Positions 25,242 through 50,500 of a stretch of 64,000 nucleotides of DNA are shown here, piece by piece. The notes beneath the pieces are model-generated. The model was given only the letters and a program-made list of their open reading frames with translations. It was not told the origin of the DNA and searched no databases. Where the stretch lies: positions 124,001 through 188,000 of the forward strand of contig JAJDAD010000092.1 in NCBI GenBank assembly GCA_029262055.1, written 5' to 3'. Source of the stretch: Candidatus Zhuqueibacterota bacterium (GTDB taxonomy: Bacteria; Zhuqueibacterota; Zhuqueibacteria; Oceanimicrobiales; Oceanimicrobiaceae). Position 1 is the first letter of the stretch, and each line of letters starts with the position of its first letter. Made by a program: the position numbers and the translations under genes.

Positions 25242-25546
25242 TACCCGTGTCCTTTAGTAGAGTGTCTTCTCGTGGTCGTGAATGGATTCGGTCCTGCTTC
25301 CCTATAACCTGTCATTCGCCAACATGATTTCGCTAATGGTAGCACTTTGGGTCTGAGAAAGTCAAGGCCAATTCTCATAAAAAATTGCTCTTCCAGACAT
25401 GCCTATTCTTGTTCTGTCGGCTCTTGCTCTTTTACTCGCAAACAGTTCAATGCAGGCCAAATAATCCTTGACCTGAGCGAATGTAACTGTTATGTTAGTC
25501 GATTGAATTCAAAGGCAACCAAAACAGATCAGAGGCGTCCAACACA
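25242..25546. other. Divergent intergenic region upstream of glnS
   Basis: The 305 bp between the aminotransferase and glnS starts contains the glnS promoter described separately. A short open frame on the plus strand near 25347 has no ribosome site or motif and is not called. Confidence 0.5.
25468..25496 (+). promoter_or_regulatory. Sigma-70-type promoter of glnS
   Basis: TTGACC (25468-25473) and TATGTT (25491-25496) are spaced by 17 bp, 51 bp before the glnS ATG. Confidence 0.6.
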
Positions 25547-30945: not shown

Positions 30946-31386
30946 ATGACTTATTCAAAGCTAACTTTGGTGACCTTAGTAGCCCTGGTCAGTTTTACCG
31001 CCTGCGAACGACCGCAGCAGAACAGCGTCCTGAATCCTCCACCGCCACCGGGGCTGAATGGACAACCCACACTCAGCAGCATTCAGGCCACGACGCTTAC
31101 GCCGAGTTGCGGGATAGCACCTTGCCACGTAGCTGGCGGACTGGCGCCGTTTCGCCTCGACGGGACTGCCCAGTCGTTTGCAAATCTGGTCGGCATTCAA
31201 TCCTTGCACAATCCGAACAAGAATCGTGTCACCGCCGGTGACCTTACGTTGAGTTATTTGCTCGACATTACTCAGGGCAATGGCGTCAACGGCGCGGTTA
31301 TGCCTCCGGGGGGAAACAACTTATTATCGGCGGCCCAGATTCAGCAAATCAGCGACTGGATCACTGCCGGTGCGCTTAACAATTAG
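30946..31386 (+). CDS. Monoheme CX4CH cytochrome-like lipoprotein
   Basis: A 146-residue predicted lipoprotein: signal peptide ending in SFTAC (cysteine near residue 20), then a proline-rich linker and a small c-type heme domain. The heme motif is CGIAPCH (C55-H61, spacing CX4CH), and a candidate axial methionine lies in VMPPGG (residue 119). The C-terminal helix QIQQISDWITAGA is typical of such domains (…I.DWI..GA). The same domain, with heme cysteine and methionine at nearly identical positions, forms the N-terminus of the barrel fusion at the end of the cluster. A GGAG site stands eight bases before the start. It is the first gene of the cluster and probably an outer-membrane- or periplasm-facing electron carrier, by inference. 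Confidence 0.8.
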   Translation: MTYSKLTLVTLVALVSFTACERPQQNSVLNPPPPPGLNGQPTLSSIQATTLTPSCGIAPCHVAGGLAPFRLDGTAQSFANLVGIQSLHNPNKNRVTAGDLTLSYLLDITQGNGVNGAVMPPGGNNLLSAAQIQQISDWITAGALNN

Positions 31387-31396
31387 GGGTAGGACA

Positions 31397-32977
31397 ATGG
31401 CGCAAAAAGAGAAAAGAGCGATCTGTCAGGGAGTGCTGCTTGTGGGGCTAGCGGCTCTGCTGCAAAGCTGTGCTTCCGGCACCTCACCCGCGGTGCCCGA
31501 TCCCGGCGTTACACCAGGTTTATCCCAGGACGACGTGCAAGTTCTGATCGCGCAGGCGGTTGAGCAGGCGGAGCGGCAGAACCAAAGCGTGGTTGTTTCA
31601 GTCTGTGACCGGGCCGGCAACATTCTGGGGATTTTCAGCATGTCCGGGACGCGCGGGTCGGTGTGGGATGTTAACGTCGGCGCCGTGGCGAAAGCGCGCA
31701 CTGCCGCCTATCTGAGCAGCAATCAACACGGTTTCAGTACACTGACCGCCTGCTACATCACGCGTTCCCACTTTCCACCGACGGCTGCAAATACGACTGG
31801 TGGGCCACTTTACGGTGTACCTTTTTCGAGTCTGGGCGGCAGTGATGTCCAGCCAAACAACAGCACCCCGCCGGGGCAGAATGGTAGCGGGCAACAGGGT
31901 CTTACAGGCGTGCCAGGCGGGGTGCCGGTTTACAAGAGCGGTCTGCTGGCCGGTGGATTGGGCGTCAGCAGTTTTGGTACGGTGGGGCTCTTGCCAGGCA
32001 ATTTTCTCGTGGACTGCGGCGGTTCTATACCTGATGAAAGCATCGCGCTTGGCGCAGTCGCCGGCTATGAAGTGCCACCGGACAAACGCGGTGACAACGT
32101 CTTTCTGGACGGAGTGCGGCTGCTTTATGCCAACTCCCAGGCACCGGCAGGGGGCTTTAATCTTACTTTTGCGGATTTGGCCTCTCGCGGTAGCCTCGAC
32201 CCGACGTACCCGCTGCCCAATCCGGTAAACTTTCCGCCACAAGGAGCCGTCGACCTGGGGGATGGCATCCACAATTACGCTGCAAGACCGGGACAATTCC
32301 TGAGCGATGCCGACGTACAACAGATCCTCGACCAGGCGGTTGCCCAGGCCGGACGAACCCGGGCTGCCATCAGGCGGCCGATCGGTTCCGCGGCACGTGT
32401 TTTCGTAGCGGTGGTGGACGTCGATGGCACGGTTCTCGGCGTTTGGCGCACGCCGGATGCCACTTTGTTCAGTTACGATGTCGCAGTGCAGAAAGCGCGT
32501 ACCGTGGTGGCGTTTAGCGATTCATCCACCACTTATGGTGCCCAAATCCGGCAGGCGTTGGGTTTGCCCGCAAACCAGCAATTGGCGGTCACCACCAGGG
32601 TGGTGGGTTTTCTGGGTCAGCGGTTTTTCCCGCCGGGCATCGACCAGGCCACATTGGGTCGGCCTGTACAGCCAGGCCCATTGTTTGTCCCGGATCCGAT
32701 TCTGCCGGTCAACGACTATCGCTGGCAGCAGAACCTGGGCCTGGCACCTTATGGCAACGGCATCACCATTTTTCCCGGCGGTATCCCGCTCTACCGAAAT
32801 GGCCAACTGGTCGGCGGCATCGGTGTCAGTGGCGATGGTGTGGATCAGGATGACTTCATCGCCGCGGCAGGGGCAGGCGGTCTTGACGCGCCTGCGCCGA
32901 TCCGGTCGGACCAGTTTTTCTACGACGGTGTGCGGCTGCCCTACTTGAAGTTTCCGCGTCAACCATTCACCAACTAA
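31397..32977 (+). CDS. Tandem HbpS/GlcG-type (DUF336) heme-binding-like lipoprotein
   Basis: A 526-residue protein with a lipoprotein signal (LLQSCASG). It carries two GlcG/HbpS-type domains: one near 45-135 (VLIAQAVEQAERQNQSVVVSV, DRAGNILGIF, AVAKARTAAY), and one near 310-400 (ILDQAVAQAGRTR, VVDVDGTVLGVWR, AVQKARTVVAF). Each is followed by an extended region with a GGxPxYxxGxLxGGxGVS motif. HbpS-type proteins bind heme in Streptomyces, and GlcG sits in glycolate loci, but many homologues are uncharacterised. It begins 10 bp after the cytochrome lipoprotein and precedes an outer-membrane barrel. A heme-handling role in the cluster is an inference. Confidence 0.78.
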   Translation: MAQKEKRAICQGVLLVGLAALLQSCASGTSPAVPDPGVTPGLSQDDVQVLIAQAVEQAERQNQSVVVSVCDRAGNILGIFSMSGTRGSVWDVNVGAVAKARTAAYLSSNQHGFSTLTACYITRSHFPPTAANTTGGPLYGVPFSSLGGSDVQPNNSTPPGQNGSGQQGLTGVPGGVPVYKSGLLAGGLGVSSFGTVGLLPGNFLVDCGGSIPDESIALGAVAGYEVPPDKRGDNVFLDGVRLLYANSQAPAGGFNLTFADLASRGSLDPTYPLPNPVNFPPQGAVDLGDGIHNYAARPGQFLSDADVQQILDQAVAQAGRTRAAIRRPIGSAARVFVAVVDVDGTVLGVWRTPDATLFSYDVAVQKARTVVAFSDSSTTYGAQIRQALGLPANQQLAVTTRVVGFLGQRFFPPGIDQATLGRPVQPGPLFVPDPILPVNDYRWQQNLGLAPYGNGITIFPGGIPLYRNGQLVGGIGVSGDGVDQDDFIAAAGAGGLDAPAPIRSDQFFYDGVRLPYLKFPRQPFTN

Positions 32978-32995
32978 AGAAAATCAGAGAATCGA

Positions 32996-34666
32996 ATGTA
33001 CCGGCAAGTTTTTCTAACAACCTATCTCGTGTGCTTTGCGCTACTCTTGGTTTTGTTGAATCCGATATGGGCCCAGGAACGGCCACCGGCACGACCGGCG
33101 GCAGATACAACCCGACACTTTCAACCGGTTGTCGACCGCTGGCAAGGTGTGCAACCGCCACCTTATCAACTCAATGTCAAAGGCGCGTATATCGACCCGT
33201 ACAATCAGAATATTCTGAAGGGAGATTTTCCCATCGCCGGACAGAACCTCTTTCTGATTCTGTCGGCATCTATCGAGAATTTTGCCGAAGCTTTTGCCGT
33301 TCCGACGCCAAGCGCGATCAGCGGCGCCCGTGGCCAAAACCAGCGCTTCTTCGGTAGCCAGAGCCGCCTGCTATTGAATGAAACCATCAAGTTTTCATTC
33401 GAGCTTTATAAAGGAAACACGGCCTACAAGCCGCGGGATTTTGAGATAAAAATCACGCCGGTGGTGAACCTGAACTACATTACGACCCGGGAGAACAACG
33501 ACGTCAGTATCAACGTTCGCCAGGGCACAAATCGCTATGACAGCCATCTGGCGTTCCAGGACTTGTTCATCGAAAAGCACCTCTTCAACCTGAGCAAGGC
33601 GTACGACTTCATTTCCGTAAAAGCCGGAATCCAGCCGTTTATCAGCGATTTTCGCGGATTTGTTTTTGAGGATGCAAATCTGGGCGCTCGCTTGTTTGGC
33701 AGCGCGGCTTCAAATCGCTTGCAGTACAATTTTGCTTACTTCAAAATGCTGGAAAAAGACACCAACAGCAAACTCAACACGGTCTTTGAGAACAGGGACC
33801 AGGATGTTTTTGTGGCCAATCTTTACAAACAGGATTTCCTGAAACTCGGGTACACCGGCCAGCTCAGTTTTCATTATAATCATGACAAACCGAGCGTCTA
33901 TGTTGACGAAAACGGTGTGCCGGTCCGGCCTTCTATTTTGGGAAGCAGCGTACCGCACGATATCAAGGCCTTCTATTTCGGTTGGAACGGCGACGGACAC
34001 TTTGGCCGCTTGAACATCACGCACGCTTTTTACCAGGTGTTTGGCAAAGACAGCTTCAACTCTCTGGCCGGGCAAGCCATTACGCTGAACGCGCAAATGG
34101 CAGCGCTCGAACTGTCGCTGGACAAAGACTGGATGCGGGTAAGCCTGTCCGCATTCTACGCGTCCGGCGACAGCAAGCCTTTGGATGGAGTAGGGCGGGG
34201 CTTTGACACGATCCTGGACTTGCCGTTTTTCGCCGGCGGGCCGGTCAGTTACTGGAACAGTCAGGGGATTCGATTGTTGGGGGTTAACCTGGTCAGCAGG
34301 AGCAGTCTGGTGCCAAACCTGCGCGGCAACAAGACCGAGGGGCAGGCGAACTTCGTCAATCCCGGCCTCCTCCTGCTGAACCTTGGGTACCTCGCTAGCC
34401 TAACCCCGAAGCTAAGCCTGTCTCTGAACGGCAACTACATCAGATTCATAAACACGGCCGCTCTCTCGCAATTTGTCAATCAAAATGTCCGGCGCGCCAT
34501 CGGGCTGGACTACGGCATCGGCATGACCTACCGGCCTTTTTTGAACAACAACGCAATTGTCAGTTTTGCGCTGAACGCATTGACGCCCCTGTCAGGATTC
34601 AATGACCTTTACGAGTCTCCGGGGACACAGTTTTCCCTCTCGACCTCCCTGATTTTTACCTACTAA
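32996..34666 (+). CDS. Predicted outer-membrane beta-barrel protein
   Basis: A 556-residue protein with a signal peptide (about 1-26, ending NPIWAQ). It has alternating polar/hydrophobic segments and many aromatic girdle residues, such as FEIKITPVVNLNYI, LQYNFAYFKML, VSLSAFYASGD and LSLSLNGNYIRFI. It ends in FSLSTSLIFTY, a final strand with a C-terminal aromatic as used by the BAM complex. No known porin family is recognised, and no heme motif is present. Its place between lipoproteins and a large decaheme protein suggests an outer-membrane conduit sheath comparable in principle to MtrB-type porins, but no MtrB signature was seen; the role is inferred. Confidence 0.75.
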   Translation: MYRQVFLTTYLVCFALLLVLLNPIWAQERPPARPAADTTRHFQPVVDRWQGVQPPPYQLNVKGAYIDPYNQNILKGDFPIAGQNLFLILSASIENFAEAFAVPTPSAISGARGQNQRFFGSQSRLLLNETIKFSFELYKGNTAYKPRDFEIKITPVVNLNYITTRENNDVSINVRQGTNRYDSHLAFQDLFIEKHLFNLSKAYDFISVKAGIQPFISDFRGFVFEDANLGARLFGSAASNRLQYNFAYFKMLEKDTNSKLNTVFENRDQDVFVANLYKQDFLKLGYTGQLSFHYNHDKPSVYVDENGVPVRPSILGSSVPHDIKAFYFGWNGDGHFGRLNITHAFYQVFGKDSFNSLAGQAITLNAQMAALELSLDKDWMRVSLSAFYASGDSKPLDGVGRGFDTILDLPFFAGGPVSYWNSQGIRLLGVNLVSRSSLVPNLRGNKTEGQANFVNPGLLLLNLGYLASLTPKLSLSLNGNYIRFINTAALSQFVNQNVRRAIGLDYGIGMTYRPFLNNNAIVSFALNALTPLSGFNDLYESPGTQFSLSTSLIFTY

Positions 34667-34688
34667 TTCAGGTCGAAAAGGAGGCAGA

Positions 34689-34736
34689 ATGCGAGGAAAA
34701 GAAATTAGTTCATTCAAAAACGGAAAGCATTTATAA
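34689..34736 (+). CDS. Possible 15-codon leader peptide upstream of the decaheme gene
   Basis: An ATG at 34689 stands five bases after AAGGAGG, the strongest ribosome site in the vicinity. It opens a 15-codon frame, MRGKEISSFKNGKHL, that stops one base before the ATG of the decaheme-LVIVD gene (34738). That ATG itself has no good ribosome site, so translation could be coupled through this leader. A sequencing frameshift that merges the two frames is the alternative. Confidence 0.4.
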   Translation: MRGKEISSFKNGKHL

Positions 34737-34737
34737 G

Positions 34738-37700
34738 ATGGCGCTGTCAAACATCTACAAATCTCTGATTGCGTTGGTCCCGCAGGCGTACGTCTTTCAG
34801 ACCGGGAACTCCGGCAAAAGTAGACCCGGCTTTCCCGGGAAATCTGCGTACTTAGCCTGGCTTTTTGCCTGTCTGGCAGTTCTTGCCGGCGATGGGTTTT
34901 CGCAGTCAAGCGAGGACGCCAGGCCGAAGGGCCGGCGGCGTATCCGGCAGAGCTTCGAAAATGTGCTGGAAAAGAGCGCCGGTTGCTTGGTCTGCCACAA
35001 CGGTATCGAGAAGATGCACGTGTCCGAGGCCGTGAAATTGGGCTGCACAGACTGCCACGGCGGCAACCCGCGAGCACGGACGCTCACGGCGGCCCATGTT
35101 CAGCCCAGATTCCCGGAGCGCTGGCAGTCGTCGGCGAACCCGGTGCGTTCTTTCACACTTTTGAACGAGGAGAGGCCCGAGTTTGTCAGATTTGTCAATC
35201 CCGGCGACTTGCGCATCGCAGATGAGACTTGCGGGTCTTGTCATCCGCAGGAAGTCCTGCGTGTCAAGAAAAGCATGATGACGACTTCCACCTTATTATG
35301 GGGCGGAGCGGCCTACAACAATGGCATCGTTTCAAACAAAGTCTATAATTTTGGCGAAAGCTACGGCCGCGACGGCACACCTTTGCGCATCAACACGGTG
35401 CCGGTACCGACGCCGGAAGAGATCCGCAACAAGGGCATTTTGCCGTTCGTTTTGCCCCTGCCTCGTTGGGAAATCGCTCAGGTCGGGAACATCTTCCGGA
35501 CGTTTGAACGGGGCGGAAAGGTCTCGCGCATCAATCCTTCCAACATCGGCGTTCCTGTTCCGCTGGAACTGCCCGGGAAGCCGGATATGAAGCTCGGCGA
35601 TCGCGGGCTCGGGACACAACTGCGGATCAGCTCACCTGTGCTCAACATCCATAAAACCCGGCTGAACGATCCCCATCTGTCTTTTTTGGGAACGAACGAT
35701 CACCCGGGCGACTACCGATCGAGTGGGTGTACTGCCTGTCACGTGGTCTATGCCAACGACCGCTCACCGGAGCATTCCGGCCCGTTTGCCAAATATGGAC
35801 ATCTCGGCCGAGGCGCATCCGCGGACCGCGCCATTCGGAAAGGGCAGGAGGGGCATCCGATTCAACACCGCCTCACCACGAGCATTCCTTCCAGTCAGTG
35901 CATGGTCTGCCACATGCACCAGCCGAACGGATTTATGAATACTTTTTACGGCTTTCAAATGTGGGACTACGAAACCGACGGCCGCGTGATGTACCCCAAA
36001 AAGCAAAAATATCCGTCGCCGGAAGAGGCCTTCGCTCTCATCGATGCGAATCCGGAAGAGGCTGTGCTGCGCGGCAAGTGGGGAGATAAGCGTTTTCTGG
36101 CGAATGTCAGCAAGCTCAACCCGAAGCTAAAAAAGACGCAATTCGCGGATTACAACGGGCATGGCTGGGTTTTCAGAGCTGTCTTCAAGAAAGATCGTAA
36201 AGGCAATCTGCTCGACAAGGACAACAAATCCATCCCATGGCAGTCTGAGCACAAGTTCCACGGCGTGGTTGAGCTTGAGGGCGAGTCATCCTTTTGTGAT
36301 GAGTCCTGCCGCCGGTCGCCGAAGGCGGTCCACCTCAAAGACATTCACATGGAAAAAGGCATGCATTGCATCGACTGCCATTTTGACCGGGATTCGCACG
36401 GCACCGGCAAGTTGCACGGCGAGTTCCACAACGCGATCGAAATCCAATGTGTGGATTGTCACGGCAATGTGGCCGCGTTTGCTGCCCTGCGCACTTCCGG
36501 GGTTGCGGCTCCCGCAAACGGGACCGAGTTGACGGCATTGCGGACACCGTTCGGCGACGCAAGGTTCGAACGTGATGGCGACCGCCGCATTCAGCGGTCG
36601 ATGCTGGTAGACACGCTGGCATGGGAAATAAGCCAGGTCAAGACGTCCATTAACCCCGCGTCTGCTTCCTTCAATCCAAAAGCGATGGCAGCCAAGCTCG
36701 TGTCGAAAGGCGGCCACGTGCAGGACCCGGAAACTCTCGACCCCGGACAATTGGCACACATTTATGAAAAAATGGAGTGCCAGGCTTGCCATACTTCGTG
36801 GATTACCAACTGTTTCGGATGCCACTTGCCACAGCAGGCCAATTGGAAGAAAGAGATGAACCATTTTGAAGGCGGCACCACCCGCAATTGGACAACTTAC
36901 AACCCGCAGGTCATTCGCGACGACGGCTTCATGCTGTGTGTCAACGGTAGCACCAAAGGCAACAAGGTAACCACCGCGCGTTCGAGCAGCGCTTTGATTC
37001 TCAGCTCGCGTAATGCCAACCGCGAGCAGGTTTACCTGCAGCAACCGCCAATTTCTGCACCCGGATACAGTAGTCAGGCCTTTAATCCGCATTTTGCGCA
37101 TACTGTCCGCAAGACCGAAACCCGAACCTGTTCCGACTGCCATCTTTCAGAAAGAAACGACAACAATGCCTGGATGGCTCAGATGCTTTTGCACGGCACC
37201 AATTTTGTCAATTTTATGGGTAAGTTTCTCTATGTTGCTGAGGGCAAGGCCGGCTTCGAAGCGGTGGAGGTTACCGAAACAGATGAGCCGCAGGCAGTCA
37301 TCGGCAGTTACCTGCACAAGCTGGCCTACCCGGACTATTACCGGGAGCACCTGGGCCGGCAGCGCAAACTGGCTTCAAGCCACGGTCACGGCGGCGACGG
37401 AGTGCTCGGTCTGCAACTGCGCGGCGAGTATCTTTACACGGCCGGCGGAAAGGCGGGGTTTCGTGTTTATGATGTCGCCAATATTGACAACAAGGGTTAT
37501 TCGCAGCGGATTGTTTCATCTCCGGTTTCGGCGTGGGGGCAGGACACTCACGTTGCGACCAGGTTCGCTACGGCCGTGGCTTTGCCAACCAATATGCCGG
37601 TAGATACCCGCCGACAGTCAGTGGTCGCCAACCCGGACAATCAGGAGAAGCCGCTGCATCCTCTGTACAGTTATGCGTACATCACTGACAAATACGAAGG

Positions 37701-38592
37701 GCTCATTCTGGTGGATGTGATGAACCTGGTCGATGGCGATCCGCGCAACAATTTTCTCAAGCGCGCCGTGACTTTCAATCCAGGCGGAGTTCTGAACGGC
37801 GCCATAAACTTGAGCGTGGCGGGCAATTACGTTTACGTCCTGTGTGATGCCGGATTGGTGGTGGTGAGTATCGAGAAGCCGCTTTCTCCGAACATCGTGG
37901 CAATGGTGTCTTCTCCGGAATTGCTCAGGCCGAAGGCGATCGCGATCCAGTTCCGCTACGCATTTATTTGCGATGAAACAGGCGTCAATGTGGTGGATAT
38001 CACTGACCCGGCCCGGCCCGCGCTGGTGCCGGAAAGCTATGTCGCGCTGCCGCAGGCAAATGATATCTACTGTGCCCGCACCTACGCTTATGTGGCCGGC
38101 GGCCCGGCCGGCCTGGTAATCATCGATATCGAAAAGCCGGAATCGATTCGAGTCGACCAGGTATTCACCGCGAAAGGTAAACTGAACGACGTCCGCGGCG
38201 TCAAGGTTGCCTCCACCAATGCCAGTCTTTTTGCTTATGTAGCTGACGGGAGAAATGGTTTACGCGTCGTGCAACTCACTTCCCCCCTGACGCCGGGCCA
38301 TCTGGGTTTTAGCCCAAGGCCTGCGCCGCTTCTTATCGCTTCACGGAAAACCCGTGGTGCTGCTCTGGCCGTTTCAAAAGGGCTTGACCGCGACCGCGCC
38401 GTCGACGAGAGCGGCAACCAGGTGAGCATCTTTGGCCGGCTTGGGTCGAGGCCCTTCACACTGACCGAGCAACAGTCATTCTATCGCGATGATACCGGAG
38501 AGATCTACACGGTCGAGGATGAGCTTTGGAAGAAGCTGATAAGGTTCGGCAAGATTTCTTTGACGGAATTCCCGGGTGACAAATCAGATTAG
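34738..38592 (+). CDS. Decaheme c-type cytochrome fused to an LVIVD-repeat beta-propeller
   Basis: A 1284-residue exported protein. After a positively charged lead, a hydrophobic signal segment (about 37-55, AYLAWLFACLAVLAGDG) precedes ten CXXCH heme-attachment motifs with cysteines starting at 83, 103, 165, 331, 388, 544, 571, 681, 692 and 798. A further CDESCRR at 520 looks like a lost heme site. From about 830 to 1215 come LVIVD-type repeats, for example GFRVYDVANI, GLILVDVMNL, GLVVVSIEKP, GVNVVDITDP, GLVIIDIEKP and GLRVVQLTSP, which form a surface beta-propeller. The heme array would conduct electrons in the periplasm or at the outer membrane, while the propeller may dock a partner. Its stop overlaps the next cytochrome gene by 17 bp. 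Confidence 0.9.
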   Translation: MALSNIYKSLIALVPQAYVFQTGNSGKSRPGFPGKSAYLAWLFACLAVLAGDGFSQSSEDARPKGRRRIRQSFENVLEKSAGCLVCHNGIEKMHVSEAVKLGCTDCHGGNPRARTLTAAHVQPRFPERWQSSANPVRSFTLLNEERPEFVRFVNPGDLRIADETCGSCHPQEVLRVKKSMMTTSTLLWGGAAYNNGIVSNKVYNFGESYGRDGTPLRINTVPVPTPEEIRNKGILPFVLPLPRWEIAQVGNIFRTFERGGKVSRINPSNIGVPVPLELPGKPDMKLGDRGLGTQLRISSPVLNIHKTRLNDPHLSFLGTNDHPGDYRSSGCTACHVVYANDRSPEHSGPFAKYGHLGRGASADRAIRKGQEGHPIQHRLTTSIPSSQCMVCHMHQPNGFMNTFYGFQMWDYETDGRVMYPKKQKYPSPEEAFALIDANPEEAVLRGKWGDKRFLANVSKLNPKLKKTQFADYNGHGWVFRAVFKKDRKGNLLDKDNKSIPWQSEHKFHGVVELEGESSFCDESCRRSPKAVHLKDIHMEKGMHCIDCHFDRDSHGTGKLHGEFHNAIEIQCVDCHGNVAAFAALRTSGVAAPANGTELTALRTPFGDARFERDGDRRIQRSMLVDTLAWEISQVKTSINPASASFNPKAMAAKLVSKGGHVQDPETLDPGQLAHIYEKMECQACHTSWITNCFGCHLPQQANWKKEMNHFEGGTTRNWTTYNPQVIRDDGFMLCVNGSTKGNKVTTARSSSALILSSRNANREQVYLQQPPISAPGYSSQAFNPHFAHTVRKTETRTCSDCHLSERNDNNAWMAQMLLHGTNFVNFMGKFLYVAEGKAGFEAVEVTETDEPQAVIGSYLHKLAYPDYYREHLGRQRKLASSHGHGGDGVLGLQLRGEYLYTAGGKAGFRVYDVANIDNKGYSQRIVSSPVSAWGQDTHVATRFATAVALPTNMPVDTRRQSVVANPDNQEKPLHPLYSYAYITDKYEGLILVDVMNLVDGDPRNNFLKRAVTFNPGGVLNGAINLSVAGNYVYVLCDAGLVVVSIEKPLSPNIVAMVSSPELLRPKAIAIQFRYAFICDETGVNVVDITDPARPALVPESYVALPQANDIYCARTYAYVAGGPAGLVIIDIEKPESIRVDQVFTAKGKLNDVRGVKVASTNASLFAYVADGRNGLRVVQLTSPLTPGHLGFSPRPAPLLIASRKTRGAALAVSKGLDRDRAVDESGNQVSIFGRLGSRPFTLTEQQSFYRDDTGEIYTVEDELWKKLIRFGKISLTEFPGDKSD

Positions 38593-39571
38593 CGCCTCTG
38601 CCCGAACGGGGCTTGGCGGTTTGACCGTTGCCCGGCAACCGTGGATTTGTCGGACGGCTCTTCTATTGCTATTTCTTCTGATGGCCGTCAGTTTTGATTC
38701 CCCGGCCCTGGCGCAGAGGGGAAAGTACAAGACGCTGGGTTATCGTTCCTGCGGCACGGAGCAGGGGGCATGTCACCAGTCCGATGGAGTCTGGTGGAAA
38801 GGCGACCCGCATTTCGGAACCGTGCAGAGCCTGAAACGCAAGAAACAGAGATCTGTGCGCATCGCTACTGCCTACGGCCTGGCGCCCGGCAGCTATCTGA
38901 AAGGAAACTCCAAGTGCGCGGAGTGCCACGGCGAGGTCGTCGGCGGACGCGAGGGCAAGAATATTAACACCGGCGTTAGTTGTGAGAATTGCCACGGGCC
39001 GGCCGGCCCTAAAGGCGTCGGCTACTATGAAGTTCATCAGGAGGGCAGCGTCCCCAAAGATCCGCTGAGTACCGCTCGACCCGGCTATCAAAAGGCGCTG
39101 CAGGTAGGAATGCTACAGTTGCGCGATACCGGCATTCGGGCCAAAACATGCGTGCAGTGCCACCAGATCAACGACAAGAAGTTGTTGGAGGCAGATCATC
39201 CCACGGGAGAAGGATTCGACTATGTTAGAGCCATTCGGAATCAGATTTCGAAACACTGGGACTATGCGGTCAGGCCAGTGGACGTCGATGCAGGAATTTT
39301 CGCGTCAGCGGTTGCCGCGCGACCGATCCCGAGTTTTACCGTCAAGGTGGCCGCACCGGCACAAGTCGTCGCTGCTGCCGGCGTGGCCCGAACGGACACC
39401 GTATTTATTTATGTCGACCCGGAAGTCCCGCCATGGCTCAACCCGGGTACAAATATCTCAATCAGCCCCTTTGCGCCGGGACTCAGCAACGACGCGCCTG
39501 TCGATTCCATCCTCATCGCTGTGAAGAACTACATTGAATACGTCCATGAGCAGCTCCGCCGTGGGAAATAA
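38576..39571 (+). CDS. Cytochrome c554-like multiheme protein (four heme sites, one atypical)
   Basis: A 331-residue periplasmic protein with a signal peptide (about 24-46). Three CXXCH motifs (CAECH, CENCH and CVQCH) follow an atypical CGTEQGACH (CX6CH) in a context, ACHQSDGVWWKGDPHFGTV, that resembles the heme-1 region of cytochrome c554 (C-H-x6-W-x4-H). Cytochrome c554-type domains shuttle electrons in several respiratory systems. The C-terminal third has no hemes and may be a binding domain. It starts with GTG inside the preceding gene (overlap 17 bp), and its last 26 bp overlap the next gene, so all are co-transcribed. Confidence 0.82.
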   Translation: MTNQISASARTGLGGLTVARQPWICRTALLLLFLLMAVSFDSPALAQRGKYKTLGYRSCGTEQGACHQSDGVWWKGDPHFGTVQSLKRKKQRSVRIATAYGLAPGSYLKGNSKCAECHGEVVGGREGKNINTGVSCENCHGPAGPKGVGYYEVHQEGSVPKDPLSTARPGYQKALQVGMLQLRDTGIRAKTCVQCHQINDKKLLEADHPTGEGFDYVRAIRNQISKHWDYAVRPVDVDAGIFASAVAARPIPSFTVKVAAPAQVVAAAGVARTDTVFIYVDPEVPPWLNPGTNISISPFAPGLSNDAPVDSILIAVKNYIEYVHEQLRRGK

Positions 39572-42017
39572 TCGGGACCTCTCAGCCTCGATTTATCGGG
39601 AGGAATTGTACAAAGACCGCTGGACCGGTTTCGAAAGGCAAAACGGTATCCTGAAGGTGTCCCGCCGGTTGCCTGCGGCCGAACTCAGGAAGTTCGAGAT
39701 ATTCCGCAAGTTCGACGACTCCTTTTTGTCCGAGCTGAGTCCCGATATTTCCGTGGCGGTTTGGGAGGACGGCAAGGTCTTGTTTGAGGAAGGCTCATAC
39801 CTCGACCTGGCGTTTTACGTCGTGAAAGGGCATGTAAATATTTTTATAGGAAAACAGCAAGGCGGCAATGGCGGGCACAGCGGCAACGGGAGCATGGCGG
39901 GTCCCGACAGCAATGGCCCGCGCGAAAGTGCGGGGGCCTACTTCCTTTCCGATACCGTCTTTCAGACACAAGTTCAGCAGGTCCGGCGTGGTGGTGAGTT
40001 GACCTTTCTGTCATCGATGGATATCGACTTGCCGTGGGGCAGTACGCTTGACCTTGGACCTGGTGAGATTTTTGGCGAAACCGGGGCTTCAATCGGCTGG
40101 CCCCAGTCAGCTACTGCACAAACCGCCAGCCAATGCCTGTTGCTGCAGATCAGGATTCCCGCGCTGCAAAAAATGAAACGCAAGTCCGGAACGCTCAAAC
40201 AACACCTTGACCAGGTCTATGTTGATCGCGCTCTGGCCGCACAGTTGAAGAATACCGCTATCTTCCAGAAATGCTCAGAGTCATTTGTGGAAGAGATTAA
40301 GCAAAGAATCGAGCTAAAGTCTTTTCGGCGCAATGAAGTCATCGCCCGGGAAGGGGAGTTCGCCACAGCGACTTACCTCATCCGTTCCGGCTTTGTCAAG
40401 CTTTCGCAGCAGATGGAACAGGGACACATCGTGGTCAACTATCTGTCCAAGGGCATGACCCTGGGCGATGCCGAGTACTTCGGCGGTCAGGGCAAGTGGC
40501 TATTCACGGCCACCTCGGTCGAGAGCACGGAACTGGTCATGGTGCCGGCCGAAGATTTCGCCAGGCTGATTCTCGAATATCCGGATGTTGAGAAACTTGT
40601 GTGGAACAGCTCGGTCGCGCGGCTAAAGGAATCCGGGTTGAGCAAGAAGTACATCGCCCGTTCCGAGTTCCTCCAGCAGGCATTGCAAAACGGACTTGTG
40701 GAAGGTACCAGCGTCCTGGTTATCGACCTGGAGACGTGTACCCGCTGCGATGACTGCGTCCGCGGCTGTGCGGAAACACACGGCGGCGCTCCGAAATTCA
40801 TACGCGAGGGCGAAAAGTACGACGACTTCCTGATTACCCGTGCCTGTTACCATTGTACGGATCCGGTTTGCCTGATCGGATGTCCGACCGGTGCGATTCG
40901 GCGGACGGGTTTCAGAACGGCCGTGGCTATCGAAGAGGAGCTTTGTATCGGCTGCAAGTCGTGCTTTTACAGATGCCCGTACGACGCCATCACCATGGTG
41001 GAAGCAGCCGGAGATGGTGGTGCCCATGCCATTATCGAGAAGGGTGAAGATCTGCTGGCGACGAAGTGCGACTTGTGTCATGACTCCGGGCACACTGAGG
41101 CCTGCGTCTACAATTGCCCGCACGGATGCGCCTCCCGTATCGAGACGGTAGAGGATTTCAACCGGTTGCTCGAAAAAAAATCCGATTTTCCCAGGTCATG
41201 GAGCCTGGTGAAATCACGAAAATGGTTGATGCTTTTTCTTGTCTGCCTCACGGTCCTCCTGGTCACATTTGGGTTGAATATAACAGTGTCGGAGATGAAT
41301 TCGGGAAACGGCTTTGGACTAGTCTTTGGCACTGTCGCGTTTGTATTCCTGGCTGGTGCAGGCTTGCTCGGTCTGCGGCGACGAACCATAAGGACCAGCA
41401 CGGCGCGCGCGTTAGGCAGTACGGCTGCCTGGGTTCAGTTTCACCTCTACGGCGGTACGCTGTTTTTGGTGGCTTTCTTGATGCACACTGGCTTTCGGCT
41501 ACCGCTGGGCTCGTTTTACACCTGGTTATGGGGACTATCCGTTTGGGTCGTAGCAGGTGGTTTTGTCGGCGTCTTCTTGCAAAAGTTCATTCCGAAAGTG
41601 CTTGCGTCCGGACTGTCGTTGGAAGTGATCTATGAGCGTATCCCCGAACTGGTGGCAGATCTCAAGCGTGAAGCTGACGAAATCGTCTCCGCGTGCTCCG
41701 CTCTTGTGGTGAATTTTTATGAGGAGCACGTCGCCGGATTTATGAGTGCTCCTGCCATCAGTGTTATCTACCTGATTGACATCACGGGTGGTATCCGCAA
41801 GCAGGAGAGACGGTTTGCCTACCTGCAAACCACTCTTTCGAAGGAAGATAATGAACGCCTGGCCCGCTTGCGAATCTTGCTGAAAACGAAGACTGAACTC
41901 GACGCACATTTCACGCTGCAGAAAGTGCTCCGGTGGTGGTTGTTCATCCATTTGCCCGCGTCGATAGTCTTGGTTCTGCTGGTAGCAATCCACCTGGCCG
42001 CGGTGCTCTACTATTGA
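39546..42017 (+). CDS. Fusion of two cyclic-nucleotide-binding domains, four [4Fe-4S] clusters and a diheme-b membrane domain
   Basis: An 823-residue protein. Two CNB domains come first (about 50-220, with an insert, and about 230-350, FRRNEVIAREGEFATATYLIRSG). A HybA/DMSO-reductase-B-like ferredoxin segment (cysteines 398 to about 528) has motifs CTRCDDCVRGC, CYHCTDPVCLIGC, CIGCKSCFYRC and CDLC. The C-terminal part has about five membrane helices. Two helices carry histidine pairs spaced HX13H (H633/H647 and H802/H816), the spacing of bis-histidyl b hemes in bc1-type cytochromes. It would link soluble or cytoplasmic electrons to quinone or to periplasmic hemes, perhaps gated by a nucleotide. 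Starts GTG/TTG/ATG nearby; ATG 39546 chosen. CNB orientation and ligand are unknown. Confidence 0.85.
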   Translation: MSSSAVGNNRDLSASIYREELYKDRWTGFERQNGILKVSRRLPAAELRKFEIFRKFDDSFLSELSPDISVAVWEDGKVLFEEGSYLDLAFYVVKGHVNIFIGKQQGGNGGHSGNGSMAGPDSNGPRESAGAYFLSDTVFQTQVQQVRRGGELTFLSSMDIDLPWGSTLDLGPGEIFGETGASIGWPQSATAQTASQCLLLQIRIPALQKMKRKSGTLKQHLDQVYVDRALAAQLKNTAIFQKCSESFVEEIKQRIELKSFRRNEVIAREGEFATATYLIRSGFVKLSQQMEQGHIVVNYLSKGMTLGDAEYFGGQGKWLFTATSVESTELVMVPAEDFARLILEYPDVEKLVWNSSVARLKESGLSKKYIARSEFLQQALQNGLVEGTSVLVIDLETCTRCDDCVRGCAETHGGAPKFIREGEKYDDFLITRACYHCTDPVCLIGCPTGAIRRTGFRTAVAIEEELCIGCKSCFYRCPYDAITMVEAAGDGGAHAIIEKGEDLLATKCDLCHDSGHTEACVYNCPHGCASRIETVEDFNRLLEKKSDFPRSWSLVKSRKWLMLFLVCLTVLLVTFGLNITVSEMNSGNGFGLVFGTVAFVFLAGAGLLGLRRRTIRTSTARALGSTAAWVQFHLYGGTLFLVAFLMHTGFRLPLGSFYTWLWGLSVWVVAGGFVGVFLQKFIPKVLASGLSLEVIYERIPELVADLKREADEIVSACSALVVNFYEEHVAGFMSAPAISVIYLIDITGGIRKQERRFAYLQTTLSKEDNERLARLRILLKTKTELDAHFTLQKVLRWWLFIHLPASIVLVLLVAIHLAAVLYY

Positions 42018-42112
42018 ATAGTATCTCTGTACAAAAAACCTGTGAACCCAATGCGTTCGTTTCCGGGGAACGCTCAAACCGGTTTAACCACACCGCACAC
42101 TGGTGCGATTAA

Positions 42113-43828
42113 ATGGAATCAAACGGAAAAAAGAAGGCCGCTGCGAGCATTCCTGCTATACCGGTCAGTCCGGGCTACATTCAGCCGGCCCGTCGCGCCG
42201 GCATGATTGCGGCGGGTTGCATTCTCAGCTTCTTGTTCATGAGCTACATGTATCAGAACAGCAGTTTTGAGGACGGTAGTTTTGTTTCGACCGGAGCGAT
42301 CTCTTCTCCTCATGCAGATGTTGAAACGCGATGTTTGGTTTGCCATGTGGAGACCACTGGTTTTATGGATATTCGCTGCCGGGATTGTCATGAAAAGTCC
42401 AGCCAGTTCGCGATTTACGACTTCGCGACCCATTATCTCTACAACTCCAACGACCAGGAGCGGGTAACCGCCGCCGTGCAGGCTCAGGCCGGGCACGAGA
42501 TGGCCTGCGGTACTTGCCACGAGGAGCACCTGGGGCGGAAGAACGACCTGGCTGACGTTTCCGACCAGAGATGCACGGGTTGTCATGGCTTTGATTCATT
42601 TGATGCCGGCCACCCTGAGTTCGAGTTTGTAAGAGAAGACAGCCGCGATGATTCCACGCTCTTGATGACACATCTGCGGCATACGGTTTTTGTCTTGCGG
42701 CAGAAGACCGGGATAGATGAGATCGAGTCACTTTTCGCTGTTCTGCGGGAGCAAACCGGATCGCCGGACCACTTCTTTATGGAAGCATGCTTGGAATGCC
42801 ATGTCCCGGCCCCGGACGGCAAAGCGTTTCTTCCTCCCAACTTTGAGAAGCATTGCCAAAAATGCCACATCAAGTCTGATGCGGCTGTCATGGCATTGCC
42901 GAGCTTCAATCCCGATGAGCCGGATCGTCCGGGTGTGGAGACCATCACCCAGATGCAGCAGCGGGGTGGACCAGGCCTGTCCTGGACTTTCACGGTTGCA
43001 CCGGATATTGTGTCAGATGAGGATGGTGAGGTCTCGAAAAACCGGATCATCCACAAGGATCCCTGGATTTTGGAGAATCTAAAGCGGATTCGAAAACAGT
43101 GGCTACAGGACTCCAGCCTGGCCGAAGTCCTGCCCACAACCGGCGATTCTGCCGGCCTCTCCAGCGGTGCCTTCTATGGCCGGGTGATTGCGGTCTTGCG
43201 CGAACACACCCGCGAGTTTCAGAGCAGGAGTGACTTGAGCGCCGAGGCCGCGAGACTGAACCTCTGGCTCGACCGAGCTGCACTCGCGTTGCATCAACCG
43301 GCGAGCGCGGTGGGTGGGAAGCCAGTCCCGCACCCGACGCGGAGGCAGGATGAAGTGCCGGGCGCTCCCCGGTCCGGCGAGTATCTACAACTGGTGGCAG
43401 ATCTGACATCAGCAAACGGACCAGAATGCGGGAAGTGCCATGAGGTTAAGCATGCCGGCTTGCTGCCCGTGCAGGCCGAGCAGCAAGTACTGCACAGAGC
43501 AAGGTTCGACCATAGCGCGCACGTGATCCGGAGGCGCTGCACAGATTGCCATGACCGGATTCCTCTCAATGCAGAGTTGCTCAAACGGTCGGTCGCCAGT
43601 TACTCGACTTTCAAAAGCGAGTTCAAACGGGAGTTCGAGCAAGACCGGGCCGCCACGCAAAACATTCCGGGCGTAGCAGTGTGTCAGGAGTGCCACAGCG
43701 GGCAGCGGGTGCGTGCCAGTTGTGTTACTTGTCACAACTTTCATCCCAACAAGTCGCAGCGCGTGACGCTCGATTTGTTCTTTTCAAATCAGGGTAAAAA
43801 AAGTCAAACAAACCAAAGCAGAAGTTAA
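42113..43828 (+). CDS. Membrane-anchored decaheme c-type cytochrome
   Basis: A 571-residue protein with an N-terminal transmembrane anchor (about 30-47, GMIAAGCILSFLFMSYMY) and a large periplasmic part. Ten CXXCH motifs are present: CLVCH, CRDCH, CGTCH, CTGCH, CLECH, CQKCH, CGKCH, CTDCH, CQECH and CVTCH. They cluster into an N-terminal group of six and a C-terminal group of four, with a heme-free helical region (about 265-440) between. This arrangement suits a quinol-linked periplasmic relay partner for the upstream cytochrome-b fusion. The overall sequence is not recognised as NrfB, OmcA or MtrC. Confidence 0.88.
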   Translation: MESNGKKKAAASIPAIPVSPGYIQPARRAGMIAAGCILSFLFMSYMYQNSSFEDGSFVSTGAISSPHADVETRCLVCHVETTGFMDIRCRDCHEKSSQFAIYDFATHYLYNSNDQERVTAAVQAQAGHEMACGTCHEEHLGRKNDLADVSDQRCTGCHGFDSFDAGHPEFEFVREDSRDDSTLLMTHLRHTVFVLRQKTGIDEIESLFAVLREQTGSPDHFFMEACLECHVPAPDGKAFLPPNFEKHCQKCHIKSDAAVMALPSFNPDEPDRPGVETITQMQQRGGPGLSWTFTVAPDIVSDEDGEVSKNRIIHKDPWILENLKRIRKQWLQDSSLAEVLPTTGDSAGLSSGAFYGRVIAVLREHTREFQSRSDLSAEAARLNLWLDRAALALHQPASAVGGKPVPHPTRRQDEVPGAPRSGEYLQLVADLTSANGPECGKCHEVKHAGLLPVQAEQQVLHRARFDHSAHVIRRRCTDCHDRIPLNAELLKRSVASYSTFKSEFKREFEQDRAATQNIPGVAVCQECHSGQRVRASCVTCHNFHPNKSQRVTLDLFFSNQGKKSQTNQSRS

Positions 43829-43847
43829 TCAAACAAAAGGACGTGTC

Positions 43848-45128
43848 ATGCAGACAGAAACAGATGCTCGCCGGTCGCTGAGAGTGCCTGCACCGCATTC
43901 GTTTAAACTGAGTATTGTGCTGGTGGGTGTCTTATTGCTTTTCAGCAACGAAGCTGTGCTCGCAAGCGACGCCATTCCGGACGAGATTTTGCGGGTTTTT
44001 GAAAACAAGTGCGCCTACGCAGGGTGTCATGTCGGGTCGGCACCGGCAGCGGATCTTAGTTTGTCGGAGGAGTCGGCCTTCGACGCTCTGGTCAACCAAC
44101 CCAGCCTGGATTTTCCCAATATCCCGCTCGTAAAGCCTGGTGCGCCGCTCAAGAGCTACTTGATGATGAAAATGGTTGGCACATCAGGGATCAAGGGTCG
44201 CCGCATGCCCATAGAAGAGCCTCTGCAAAAAACCGAGCTGCGTGCTATCGCGGCCTGGATAAAATCCCTCGGGAGCAACGGGAGCCAAACTCCGGCGCCG
44301 AGACAGAAATACGCCGCCACTTTTCCGGGGTTTTCTTCAGCGACCCTGCAAACAACCGAGACTCTGGCGCGTGGGTCGTTTCTCTACCGTATCGCGCACC
44401 GCTGGCTGGGCAAAGTAGATTCAGGGTTTGACCAGTTTTTTGGTCTCGATGCCGGGGCGCACCTCCTGACGCAATTTGCCTTTCCATTAAGAGATAACCT
44501 TACACTGTCCGTGGGTCGGTCGGGTACGAACGCGACGTTCGGGTTTGAAACGAAGTGGCGCCTGTTCCGTGAGAAAACCGACGGCTCCGTGCCTTTTTCC
44601 GCTACCCTGTTTGGCGGGGTCGACTGGTTGACCCTTAAGGCGCTCCCCGACCCGCAGAATCCGGGACAAAATCTGTCAAGGTCTTCCGGCGAGCGCTTTC
44701 AATGGTACGGCCAGTTCATTCTGGCCAAAAAATTGTCACAGCGGTTCGCAGTACAGTTGAGCCCTGGCTTTCTGGTAAACGGCAACGTGACGGTGGTGAA
44801 TGAAGAGCCGATCATCACATTGGGTTTAATCGGACGAATGGCGCTGTCAAAAAAACTAGCCGTCTTCGTGGAGGGTGCGCCAATACTGTCCGGGAGCAGT
44901 GGTGCGCTACCGGTGGGCGGTAGTACCAATGTCAATGGCCGACCCGTGGTCTATGATTCGTTTACGCTCGGACTCGAGCACCACCTGGGTGGTCATGTTT
45001 TCCACCTTTACATAACCAATTCCCTTGGACTGACAACGGCTCAGGTCATGAGCGGTGGGAACCTCAGTTTTTCTGATGGCGATTTTCGTTTGGGGTTTAA
45101 TATTTATCGCTCTCTGGGGCTGCCTTAG
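43848..45128 (+). CDS. Monoheme CX4CH domain fused to a beta-barrel (Cyc2-like architecture)
   Basis: A 426-residue protein. A signal peptide (about 18-40) is followed by a small heme domain with CAYAGCH (C55-H61) and a candidate axial methionine at M120 in RRMPIEE. The C-terminal 260 residues form an outer-membrane barrel (FFGLDAGAHLLTQFAFPL, FRLGFNIYRSLG) resembling DUF5777-type barrels. The order heme domain-barrel in one chain is the arrangement of the Cyc2 iron oxidase, although the sequences do not obviously match Cyc2. It is the last gene of the cluster (19 bp after the decaheme gene) and probably carries electrons across the outer membrane. Confidence 0.8.
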   Translation: MQTETDARRSLRVPAPHSFKLSIVLVGVLLLFSNEAVLASDAIPDEILRVFENKCAYAGCHVGSAPAADLSLSEESAFDALVNQPSLDFPNIPLVKPGAPLKSYLMMKMVGTSGIKGRRMPIEEPLQKTELRAIAAWIKSLGSNGSQTPAPRQKYAATFPGFSSATLQTTETLARGSFLYRIAHRWLGKVDSGFDQFFGLDAGAHLLTQFAFPLRDNLTLSVGRSGTNATFGFETKWRLFREKTDGSVPFSATLFGGVDWLTLKALPDPQNPGQNLSRSSGERFQWYGQFILAKKLSQRFAVQLSPGFLVNGNVTVVNEEPIITLGLIGRMALSKKLAVFVEGAPILSGSSGALPVGGSTNVNGRPVVYDSFTLGLEHHLGGHVFHLYITNSLGLTTAQVMSGGNLSFSDGDFRLGFNIYRSLGLP

Positions 45129-46991: not shown

Positions 46992-47534
46992 AAACCTGTT
47001 ATTCAAGTAGTAGCGTGCTCACCCAACACCGTCCAGGCAATGACCGCAGCACAGTTCTCCAGGAGGATGCGCAGGGTTTGTGCTTGCCTTGCACTGCAGT
47101 GTCTCCGTCCAGGTTTCGCAGGTTGCGTCCGCAAAACCCACTCCTGACACGTATTCCATGATCTAAATCCGGCTGGACTAGTTTGGGAAATCGTAGACAA
47201 GATCGTACCTGAGTTGCGACAAAGTACTTGCTTTTGTTTGTACGATGTTGTATTTCGTTAACAATTCGAGCAATACTCAAAGCCAATTGCGATGAATCCA
47301 CTGCAATTGCACCGCACCGGGAGCCAGATCCCATACGATTTTTCGTCTGATATACCCGTTCCACTACATCCTCGTCCAGCAGATACCTCCGATTGTGCAT
47401 GAAGTTAGCTATGATAGGTGTTAATTCGGTCTTTTGAGGCTTCTTCATAGTTTTGAGTTTAACTTTCAAGAGATTTTCTTTTATCCCTTACCAACCGTCG
47501 GTCTAATCACCAGGTACACGATGTGCTTAGCTTT
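46992..47534. other. 543-bp gap, with a weak minus-strand open frame
   Basis: A minus-strand frame (46999 to 47448 or 47469) could encode about 150 residues rich in basic and polar residues, but there is no good ribosome site and no recognisable domain. It could equally be a relic. No promoter for the following surface-protein operon was located. Confidence 0.3.
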
Positions 47535-50500
47535 ATGCTGAACAGACAAACGGGCATCCTCCGACATCTCTCGTTTCTTCTCCTGTCGACACTTCTCTTG
47601 ATCGGCGCCAGGACTGCGTCCGCCCAGGTCGAATGCGGCAATCCGGATCTCAGCGATGGCTGTGGCCGTCTGGTTCAGGTTTCTCCCGACAGCTTTGTCA
47701 TGGATTTTTCCCAATGCGTTGATGAAAAGGGCAGAAATCGCGGCCTGGTGGTTCGGCTTGACCTCAAGCCGGGAAAGGGGAGGTTTAAGTGTCAACAGGT
47801 GACGCACATCACAAACGGACCGGACGTCAATTTTGAACCCGGATTCTACCGCATTCTCGCGGACATTGAGTACAACCGGCCTGATGATATAACCCAAACC
47901 AACGAAAGCTTCTACCTTGAGGTTGTTGGCGAAGATACTACCGGGCCGTGTGGCGAGGTGAATGTCAAAAACCGGTTTGTTGTGGTCCCTGATACCGCCG
48001 GGTTCTCTGCCGCTGTGGGGGACTCCATCAGGGTCGTACAAAACACCGGCCTATTTCACCTTTCCCCAGGCCAAAGAGTCTTTTTTAAACATTATCAAAT
48101 CCTCGTTGATCCGGAGCTGACGCCGAATCCGACTCACCAGGATAGCCTGCTGATCAACAAGAATGCTGATGGCATAAGAGCGTTCGGGGATATCGAGAGT
48201 GTACATCTTTTTAGAATGACCTTTCAGCGAGTCGACCAGGATAGCGTATTTGCCCTGACAAAGACGGCCAACCGCGACAAGGTCACGCCCGGCGGGAGGA
48301 TCGATTATGCGCTCCGCATCCAGAATACCAGTCCGGACGAAACCGTGCGGACACTCAGGCTGCGCGACGTCCTGCCGCCGCAGGTGACTCTGGACAGTGT
48401 CACACCTGCACCGGTTGCAATCATCGGTGACACTCTGATTTGGACATTTCCCGTGCTTGGGCCGGCAGAGACGATCGAAATCGACTACTCCGTGACCGTC
48501 GCAGATACATTCCAGTTACAGAGTTTGCCCCACGCGCTTAACAATGTCAGCAGCGTTACGTCTTCCTGCGGGCCGGACACTGCCGCGGCTCAGGTCCTGG
48601 TGATCCCTGCCTGCGACCTGGGTTTAACGAAGGTTGCGCTTTCCGATTCGGTGGTTGTGGGCAAGCGTGTCTCCTATACTTTAACTGTCGTCAACAACGG
48701 CCCATTCGCTGCTTTCGATGTAAGCCTGCTCGACATTCTGCCGGACTCGGTGACTTTTCTGAGCTCGTCGCGCCCGGCGCTATTGTCGGCTGGCGGGGAT
48801 AGCGTTTTCTGGAGCTTCGATTCCCTGGCGCCGGGTGTCCCCGAAACCATCACCTATGCAGTGCAATTGCCGGCTCATTTTCCGGCCCTGCCGTTCGCCC
48901 TGCAAAATACAAGCATTCTGACTGCCGATTGTGGCTCCGCCGGCAGCAGCGCCACAGTGACAGTCGTACCGCCTCCGCCGTGCGAGCTTGGGTTGGTGAG
49001 TTTGGCCGGCATCGATTCCGTGGTGGTTGGTGAGGATTTTGGCGTCAGTTTGGTTTTGTCTAATCTGGGCCCGGCAGTCGCGCCGAATCCTGAAGTGTCA
49101 GCCATCCTGCCTGATTCGGTTGAATTCGTCAGCAGCATCCCGGTTGCGACAGTGCGCGGCGATACCCTTTTCTGGACGTTTGATTCGTTGGGAGTTGGCG
49201 CGCGCGATACGGTAAGCTACACGCTGCGTACGTCCGCGAGCCTCTCCGCGCTCCCGAAGTCGCTGGAGACCGTCAACATTATCGCGGCAGCGTGCGGCGT
49301 CGACACGACTGTGAGTTCATTCACCGTTCTGCCACCGCCGCCATGTGATTTGGTGTTTGACAGCGCTGCAAGTGCAGATTCGATTGTCGTCGGGGAGGAG
49401 CACACTTTCAGTTTGTCTTTTGCCAATCTGGGCCCGGCGGTCGCGCCGAATCCTGAAGTGTCAACCATCCTGCCTGATTCGGTTGCATTCGTCAGCAGCT
49501 TCCCGGTTGCGACGGTACGCGGCGATACCCTTTTCTGGACGTTTGATTCATTGGGAGTTGGCGCGCGCGACACGGTAAGCTACACGCTGCGTCCGTCTGC
49601 GAACCTTTCCGCGCTGCCGAAGTCGCTGGAGATAGTCAACATCATCACGGCAGCGTGCGGGGCCGACACGGCCATTCGTTCAATTGCCATTCTGCCACCG
49701 CCGCCATGCGATTTGGTGTTTGACAGCGCTGTAAGTTCGGATTCGATTGTGGTCGGGGAAGAAGTTACTTTTTCTCTGGCGTTCATCAACCTGGGCCCGG
49801 GAGTCCCATCAAGTTTCGAGGTCATTTCGGCTTTGCCCGACTCGGTTGAATTTCTCGGAGCTTCTGTCAGCCCGTCTATTTCGGTGGGTGGCGATTCTCT
49901 TTTTTGGAATTTTGATTCTCTTGCTGTCGGTGCGGGCGATACGATAAGCTACACCGTCAGACCATTGCCAGCGCTTGCTTTGTTGCCGGATGTTTTTGAA
50001 GCGAGAAGCATCATCCGATCCTCATGCGGCTCAGATTCGTCAAGGGCGTCGGTTGTTGTCACGCCGCCACCGCCATGCGATCTCACATTACAAAGCGTGG
50101 CCGGAGCTGATTCTGTTGTGGTCGGTGACGAAGTCAGCTTCACATTGGTTTTCGCGAACAACGGGCCTGCTGTGGCGCCGGCCGTGGAAATACTGTCTCT
50201 GCTGCCCGACTCCGTAGAATTCGTAAGTGCGTCTATCAAGCCCCTGATTTCTATCGAGCGGGACAAGCTGTTTTGGAAATTTCCTTCCCTGGCAGTCGGT
50301 GCCCGCGACACTATTACCTACATAGTAAGAGTCAACGAAACCTTGACAGCGCTGCCGCTGGTTTTAGAAACCAGCACTTTCATCACTTCGTCCTGCGGAG
50401 CGGACTCCGCAATTGCTTCAATCGTGGCGGTTCCACCTCCACCGTGTAATCTGGATTTGGCTCTGGCGGCCGATGTTGATTCCGTTGTTGTGGGTGAGAC

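Follow-up and report, generated by a model that had tools for sequence, protein, structure and literature searches.

A conserved, uncharacterised trans-envelope electron-transfer gene cluster with apparent NAD(P)H input and regulation

Eight genes, A to H, occupy positions 30946–45128 of a 64,000-nucleotide stretch of a Candidatus Zhuqueibacterota genome (here called the window; contig C106 of a 5.7-Mb host genome). Their core is a real, conserved and uncharacterised variant of trans-envelope electron transfer, set apart by its apparent NAD(P)H input and regulation. The reading that we favour, at a probability of roughly 0.6, is that the system would export electrons across the envelope and be fed by NAD(P)H, not by quinol; the inner-membrane half of this route is well supported. 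The eight open reading frames are as follows.

A, 30946..31386, + strand: lipoprotein (lipobox SFTAC) with one CX4CH heme site; lineage-specific accessory that pairs with H.
B, 31397..32977, + strand: tandem HbpS/GlcG-like lipoprotein (PF03928, E 2e-31, two stretches; lipobox LLQSC); core.
C, 32996..34666, + strand: outer-membrane beta-barrel, AlgE/OprD-like (18-strand AlphaFold model); core.
D, 34738..38592, + strand: decaheme cytochrome (10 CXXCH; heme region ~34984–37143) fused to an LVIVD beta-propeller (~37195–38529; E 2.5e-18); core.
E, 38576..39571, + strand: c554-like cytochrome (PF13435, E 3.5e-10) with 3 CXXCH and one atypical CX6CH; core.
F, 39534..42017, + strand: fusion of two cyclic nucleotide monophosphate (cNMP)-binding-like domains (Pfam cNMP x2, Fer4), a four-cluster ferredoxin (~40737–41117) and a diheme cytochrome b (~41199–42014).
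G, 42113..43828, + strand: inner-membrane-anchored periplasmic decaheme cytochrome (10 conserved CXXCH; transmembrane segment 29–47; Pfam Cytochrome_C7); core.
H, 43848..45128, + strand: CX4CH cytochrome domain fused to a DUF5777 beta-barrel (PF19089, E 2.7e-53); lineage-specific accessory.

The genes are tightly packed, with intergenic gaps from A to H of 10, 18, 71, −17, −38, 95 and 19 bp, and this spacing suggests co-transcription. A sequence-only reading of the window had described eight same-strand genes with short gaps or overlaps, and the arrangement was recovered at that place (gaps of −38 to 95 bp); its domain assignments were likewise upheld, by Pfam for B, D, E, F, G and H and by the 18-strand model for C.

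Cofactor ligands

By motif, the cluster carries 25–26 c hemes (10 in D, 10 in G, three plus the atypical site in E, and one each in A and H), and together with two b hemes and four [4Fe-4S] clusters this agrees with the earlier count of up to 26, two and four. The ligands are conserved. In F, 16 Cys residues, as needed for four [4Fe-4S] clusters, are invariant in 51 of 51 relatives, and two invariant H-X13-H pairs at the C-terminus (637/651 and 806/820; 46 of 46 sequences) account for the two b hemes. A CXXCH at residue 512 of F was considered as a heme site and rejected, as it belongs to the fourth Fe-S cluster. The atypical heme site of E is also kept, as CX6CH in the window and CX4CH in Limnobacter. 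D, E and G all have conserved heme sites and predicted export signals or an N-terminal anchor; relatives of G bear an N-terminal FHA-like domain (weak match), and G itself weakly matches the multiheme cytochromes 3oue/3ov0 in the PDB.

Conservation and synteny across phyla

Relatives of D were collected as 298 stretches in one scan of bacterial and archaeal genomes, with the best 80 taken as named loci. Because open reading frame calls were unreliable on GC-rich loci, gene order was recounted with tblastn, and neighbours were counted only where the contig was long enough (eligible loci). A core of seven proteins, namely the tandem HbpS lipoprotein, the 18-strand barrel, the decaheme-LVIVD protein, the c554-like cytochrome, the cNMP/4Fe-4S protein, the diheme cytochrome b and the anchored decaheme, recurs, largely in synteny, in about a dozen phyla. 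Among the best 80 these include Pseudomonadota (alpha, beta and gamma), Myxococcota, Nitrospirota, Acidobacteriota, Planctomycetota, Marinimicrobia, Zixibacteria, Binatota, Bdellovibrionota, Ignavibacteriota and others. C adjoined D at 67 of 67 eligible loci; B was a neighbour at 55 of 56, G at 29 of 29, cytochrome b and F each at 28 of 29, and E at 26 of 29. The usual order is F-cytb-G-B-C-D-E or cytb-G-B-C-D-E-F, and in the KSB1 family of the window it is B-C-D-E-F-(cytb)-G. Pairwise distances of the seven core proteins correlate with one another (r = 0.80–0.93), as would be expected for a co-inherited set. Conservation of both gene order and metal ligands across phyla argues that the cluster is not a chance assembly. 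The sequence-only reading had proposed looking for the same order in related genomes; that search found the core neighbourhood kept throughout this range.

The nearest named relatives are metagenome-assembled genomes (MAGs) of candidate phylum KSB1 from the Oslofjord tunnel, and CR04bin15, titled Caldithrix sp. Loci L033, L034 and L032 come from OFTM72, OFTM177 and OFTM356, respectively, and four KSB1 tunnel MAGs (OFTM72, 153, 177 and 356) have been assigned to family CR04bin15 (PMC10732223). Cultured carriers are Limnobacter alexandrii, Steroidobacter agaridevorans, Parahaliea mediterranea and Chromatocurvus halotolerans. The tree of D requires several changes for Pseudomonadota, Myxococcota and Acidobacteriota, a pattern consistent with horizontal transfer but no proof of it, since errors can occur in both the binning and the titles of MAGs. 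One contig that bears the cluster, L083, is titled Mycobacteriaceae; it is probably misbinned or mistitled, because the system requires an outer membrane.

NAD(P)H input and regulatory genes

The sequence-only reading overlooked the probable electron input, either an FAD/NAD(P) reductase domain or a stand-alone FAD-FHA-FHA-[2Fe-2S] protein. The F of most relatives is a protein of ~800 residues that joins an FAD/NAD(P) oxidoreductase to the two cNMP domains and the ferredoxin, and the diheme cytochrome b is a separate gene, whereas in the window it is fused to F. Proteobacterial F proteins show Pyr_redox, cNMP x2 and Fer4 by Pfam, with a TrxR-like NRRxEFxRxK-type motif in most copies read. In the KSB1 family (f13) the reductase is separate (FAD, two FHA, [2Fe-2S]) and shares its operon with genes for a PP2C phosphatase and a protein with two FHA domains; the complete operon of one KSB1 relative (L149) reads B-C-D-E-F-cytb-G-FHA-FAD/FHA/Fer2-PP2C. 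In the host genome, an operon on contig C43 (~22319–27003; L123:8320–13004) encodes a two-FHA protein, an orthologue of the FAD-FHA-FHA-[2Fe-2S] protein and a Ser/Thr kinase, and is the probable input module of the window cluster. Across 82 genomes of the phylum, the FAD/FHA protein was found in 12 of 16 with F and in none of the 66 that lack F (Fisher p 2e-11, phylogeny not corrected for). Two of these genomes, G005 and G029, have both F and the FAD protein although no orthologue of D was found in them.

The most economical reading of these conserved parts is a path from NAD(P)H through FAD, Fe-S clusters and two b hemes to G. The four [4Fe-4S] clusters of F would receive electrons from the soluble FAD/NAD(P) protein, which is part of F itself in most bacteria and a separate product of C43 here; the two b hemes would then take them across the inner membrane to the anchored decaheme G. 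From G they would move to E and D and so reach the outer membrane, the presumed docking site of barrel C and lipoprotein B. An on/off switch would be provided by the cNMP and FHA domains, the Ser/Thr kinase and the PP2C phosphatase. We infer the order of transfer, its direction, its regulation and its exit at the surface from the encoded proteins: the outward direction from potentials and the lack of an energy-coupling subunit, and regulation from the domains present.

Two side observations concern the setting of the cluster in other bacteria. Some beta-proteobacterial copies adjoin ccm cytochrome-maturation genes. At Limnobacter loci L086, L095, L097 and L105 the cluster stands between ccm genes and a CHASE2-nucleotide cyclase, which could possibly supply the cyclic nucleotide.

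Modular outer parts and accessory genes

The loci of G029 and G005 (L147 and L148) join F, cytochrome b, G, FHA and FAD/FHA to different outer parts, where another barrel-like protein (503 residues; barrel called by eye) and a seven-heme c554-like cytochrome replace B-C-D. H was found only at those of the 80 named loci that belong to close KSB1 relatives, and a second A/H pair, a CX4CH lipoprotein with a DUF5777-type barrel, lies on host contig C67 (L154:4396–9120) beside cytochrome-bc-like genes (cytochrome b, Rieske-like and c-type). By these comparisons A and H are lineage-specific accessories outside the conserved core. Because of the swap in G029 and G005 and the recurrence of A/H elsewhere, we take the natural unit to be an inner-membrane module with exchangeable outer parts. 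The claim that the eight genes form one unit thus stands for their adjacency and fails for the natural unit, which comprises the core B–G and an NAD(P)H/FHA/kinase module elsewhere in the genome.

A smaller set of genes was also noted on host contig C45 (L132:7618–11590): a ferredoxin-FAD reductase, a diheme-type cytochrome b (23% to the C-terminus of F) and a long multiheme cytochrome. It is possibly a parallel NAD(P)H-to-multiheme route.

Barrel C, cytochrome D and the exit of electrons

C has no Pfam family. Its AlphaFold model (pLDDT 84.7) contains 18 long strands and is closest to AlgE (Z 29.5, root mean square deviation 3.0 over 362 residues) and OprD-type channels. The AlgE/OprD fold serves solute passage, and the MtrB sheath barrel has 26 strands; an MtrB-type sheath was therefore rejected for C on the strand count of the predicted model, and the fact that the VIA list contains no MtrB was given no weight. 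Among the weak NCBIfam matches of 46 C relatives there was none to ExtI, the commonest being DESULF_POR1; no Geobacter ExtI sequence was compared. The propeller of D is modelled with confidence and its heme half, modelled without hemes, poorly (mean pLDDT 69, many stretches below 50); a Foldseek search for the fold of the heme half returned propellers in its top rows.

Several points weigh against export to the surface by a regulated, NAD(P)H-fed chain. By analogy with MtrAB, an 18-strand barrel would be too narrow to enclose a decaheme cytochrome. None of the cluster parts is a proven surface-exposed redox lipoprotein: of the candidate outer-membrane lipoproteins, B is core and carries a lipobox, with an HbpS domain that is no proven redox centre, and A (lipobox and CX4CH) is lineage-specific. 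D is by far the most conserved member (53–76% identity across phyla; mean 59% vs 29–45% for the other parts), which is unusual for a surface wire. Of the phylum's 14 genomes with D, just 10 have an FAD/FHA protein that passes the strict threshold; it is absent from G025, G026, G027 and G023 (the last 70% complete). Finally, the cNMP domains are canonical in proteobacterial F and degenerate in the window, where the cassettes have lost the usual Arg (GWPQSATA vs GRRRTATV in relatives), so cyclic nucleotides may not act there. The trans-envelope role proposed by the sequence-only reading accordingly divides: an electron-transfer cluster is borne out by synteny, co-divergence and ligands, and reach to the surface is not, given an 18-strand AlgE/OprD-like barrel and no MtrB sheath.

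The exceptional conservation of D, the solute-passage fold of C and the weak match of the heme half of D to ExtM in 36 of 36 relatives (E ~1e-28 for the window) would also suit a periplasmic reductase served by a porin, with electrons staying short of the surface. We consider this the less likely reading. The 10 CXXCH motifs and 10 invariant non-motif His residues of D would be enough for ten bis-His hemes, a capacity that fits a wire more than an enzyme, and an open catalytic heme is not evident. The ExtM match scores ~98 bits with NF040943 against a cut-off of 800; masking CXXCH abolishes it, and with shuffled spacers E drops to 0.04 or no match is left. The similarity thus depends on the motifs in context, and identity of D with ExtM was rejected. 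No protein of the host genome scored above the ExtM cut-off, and no ExtI, ExtH or Rieske partner was recognised in the cluster.

If the favoured chain operated in reverse and carried electrons from an extracellular donor in to NAD(P)+, the system would serve electron uptake. Cytochrome conduits are generally able to run both ways, and several carriers (by title, Nitrosomonas, Limnobacter and Troglogloeales) fall in lithotrophic groups. Many carriers are heterotrophs, however, and reduction of NAD(P)+ by outer cytochromes would be uphill, with no energy-coupling subunit seen in the cluster; uptake is accordingly quite improbable. An ordinary quinol-fed Mtr/Pcc-type porin–cytochrome conduit, despite the shared parts list of periplasmic multiheme cytochromes, barrel and lipoprotein, is very improbable indeed, given the lack of any MtrA, MtrB or MtrC family match above cut-off, 18 strands rather than 26, and a conserved core that has FAD/NAD(P) and Fe-S input and no NapC/CymA/ImcH-type quinol oxidase.

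Relation to known systems

An outer-membrane cytochrome conduit is defined by three elements, a periplasmic multiheme c cytochrome, an integral barrel and an outer-membrane redox lipoprotein (PMC6148476). The first two are represented here by D, E and G (predicted location) and by the model of C. The earlier observation that no Mtr, Omc or Pcc family signature is recognisable was confirmed, as no NCBIfam model for these families passed its cut-off; for D, E and G no Mtr-family model came near (E, 15.5 bits to TIGR03507, cut-off 209). The cluster resembles MtrCAB/PioAB/Pcc in the general layout of periplasmic decaheme, barrel and outer parts, and differs in its 18-strand AlgE/OprD-like barrel, its other cytochromes and its apparent NAD(P)H rather than quinol input. 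With Geobacter extHIJKLMNOPQS (PMC5877670, PMC6148476) it shares a porin beside multiheme cytochromes and an inner-membrane cytochrome b/Fe-S part; it shows no match to rhodanese ExtH, Rieske ExtO or ExtI, is far from the ExtM cut-off, and has FAD, cNMP and FHA proteins of which none are described for Geobacter ext.

That the combination was not a known one, as first supposed, did not hold. The core is widespread (the 298 stretches) and apparently already listed among porin–cytochrome complexes (PCCs). PCCs have been noted in general terms among the tunnel MAGs (PMC10732223), and the 11 'group 1' PCCs of a 2026 survey of karst metagenomes pair a 4–5-kb decaheme gene with a ~20-strand barrel; seven of the 11 also have a ferredoxin-NADP reductase close by (PMC13264449). 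The PCC carriers in that study are reported to be mostly heterotrophs, and its dominant Limnobacter MAG has a PCC. The D gene, at 3.9 kb with 10 hemes and an 18-strand barrel as its neighbour, agrees approximately, and group 1 looks like the same family, matched by description alone; the cytochrome b/G module, LVIVD, HbpS, regulatory genes and phyletic breadth do not appear in the section of that paper on group 1. A literature search on LVIVD, FHA, cNMP and HbpS with multiheme proteins found no description of this cluster, and no functional study of it was found.

NADPH oxidases (NOX) also use cytosolic NADPH, FAD and two b hemes across the membrane under tight regulation. The analogy is functional only: the proteins are unrelated, and here electrons would pass to multiheme cytochromes.

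Genomic setting

The cluster is flanked by a minus-strand lipoprotein-like gene (to 29980) and a fumarase gene (from 45576). A promoter scan was uninformative (8 found vs 6.4 expected), and an Rfam search gave no match. Some 28 kb upstream, on the opposite strand, positions 994–2787 of the window encode a DsbD-like thiol-disulfide protein that could possibly act in the maturation of cytochrome c. Downstream, positions 47523–57145 encode two adjacent, very large proteins of 1937 and 1279 aa. Both contain DUF11 repeats, the second also has OmpA-like and AIR9 Ig domains, and both are likely surface proteins.

Implications

Export that is regulated and pumps no protons would point to a controllable sink for excess reductant and not to growth respiration. 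Known conduits are mostly linked to quinol oxidation in metal respirers. More tentatively, and with somewhat less than even confidence, we propose that the cluster represents a distinct class of extracellular electron transfer that many bacteria share, driven by NAD(P)H independently of quinone and turned on or off through cyclic nucleotides and Ser/Thr phosphorylation. Its outer-membrane modules would be exchangeable, and in cultured aerobes that are not known as electroactive (Limnobacter, Steroidobacter, Parahaliea and Chromatocurvus) it would act as a safety valve for reductant. A near-constant set of proteins, with apparent NAD(P)H input and eukaryote-like regulation, has been kept across about a dozen phyla, and most of its carriers have not been studied for extracellular electron transfer. 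The cultured carriers named above make the export reading directly testable; if it is true, many aerobes would be able to discharge cytosolic reductant outside the cell.

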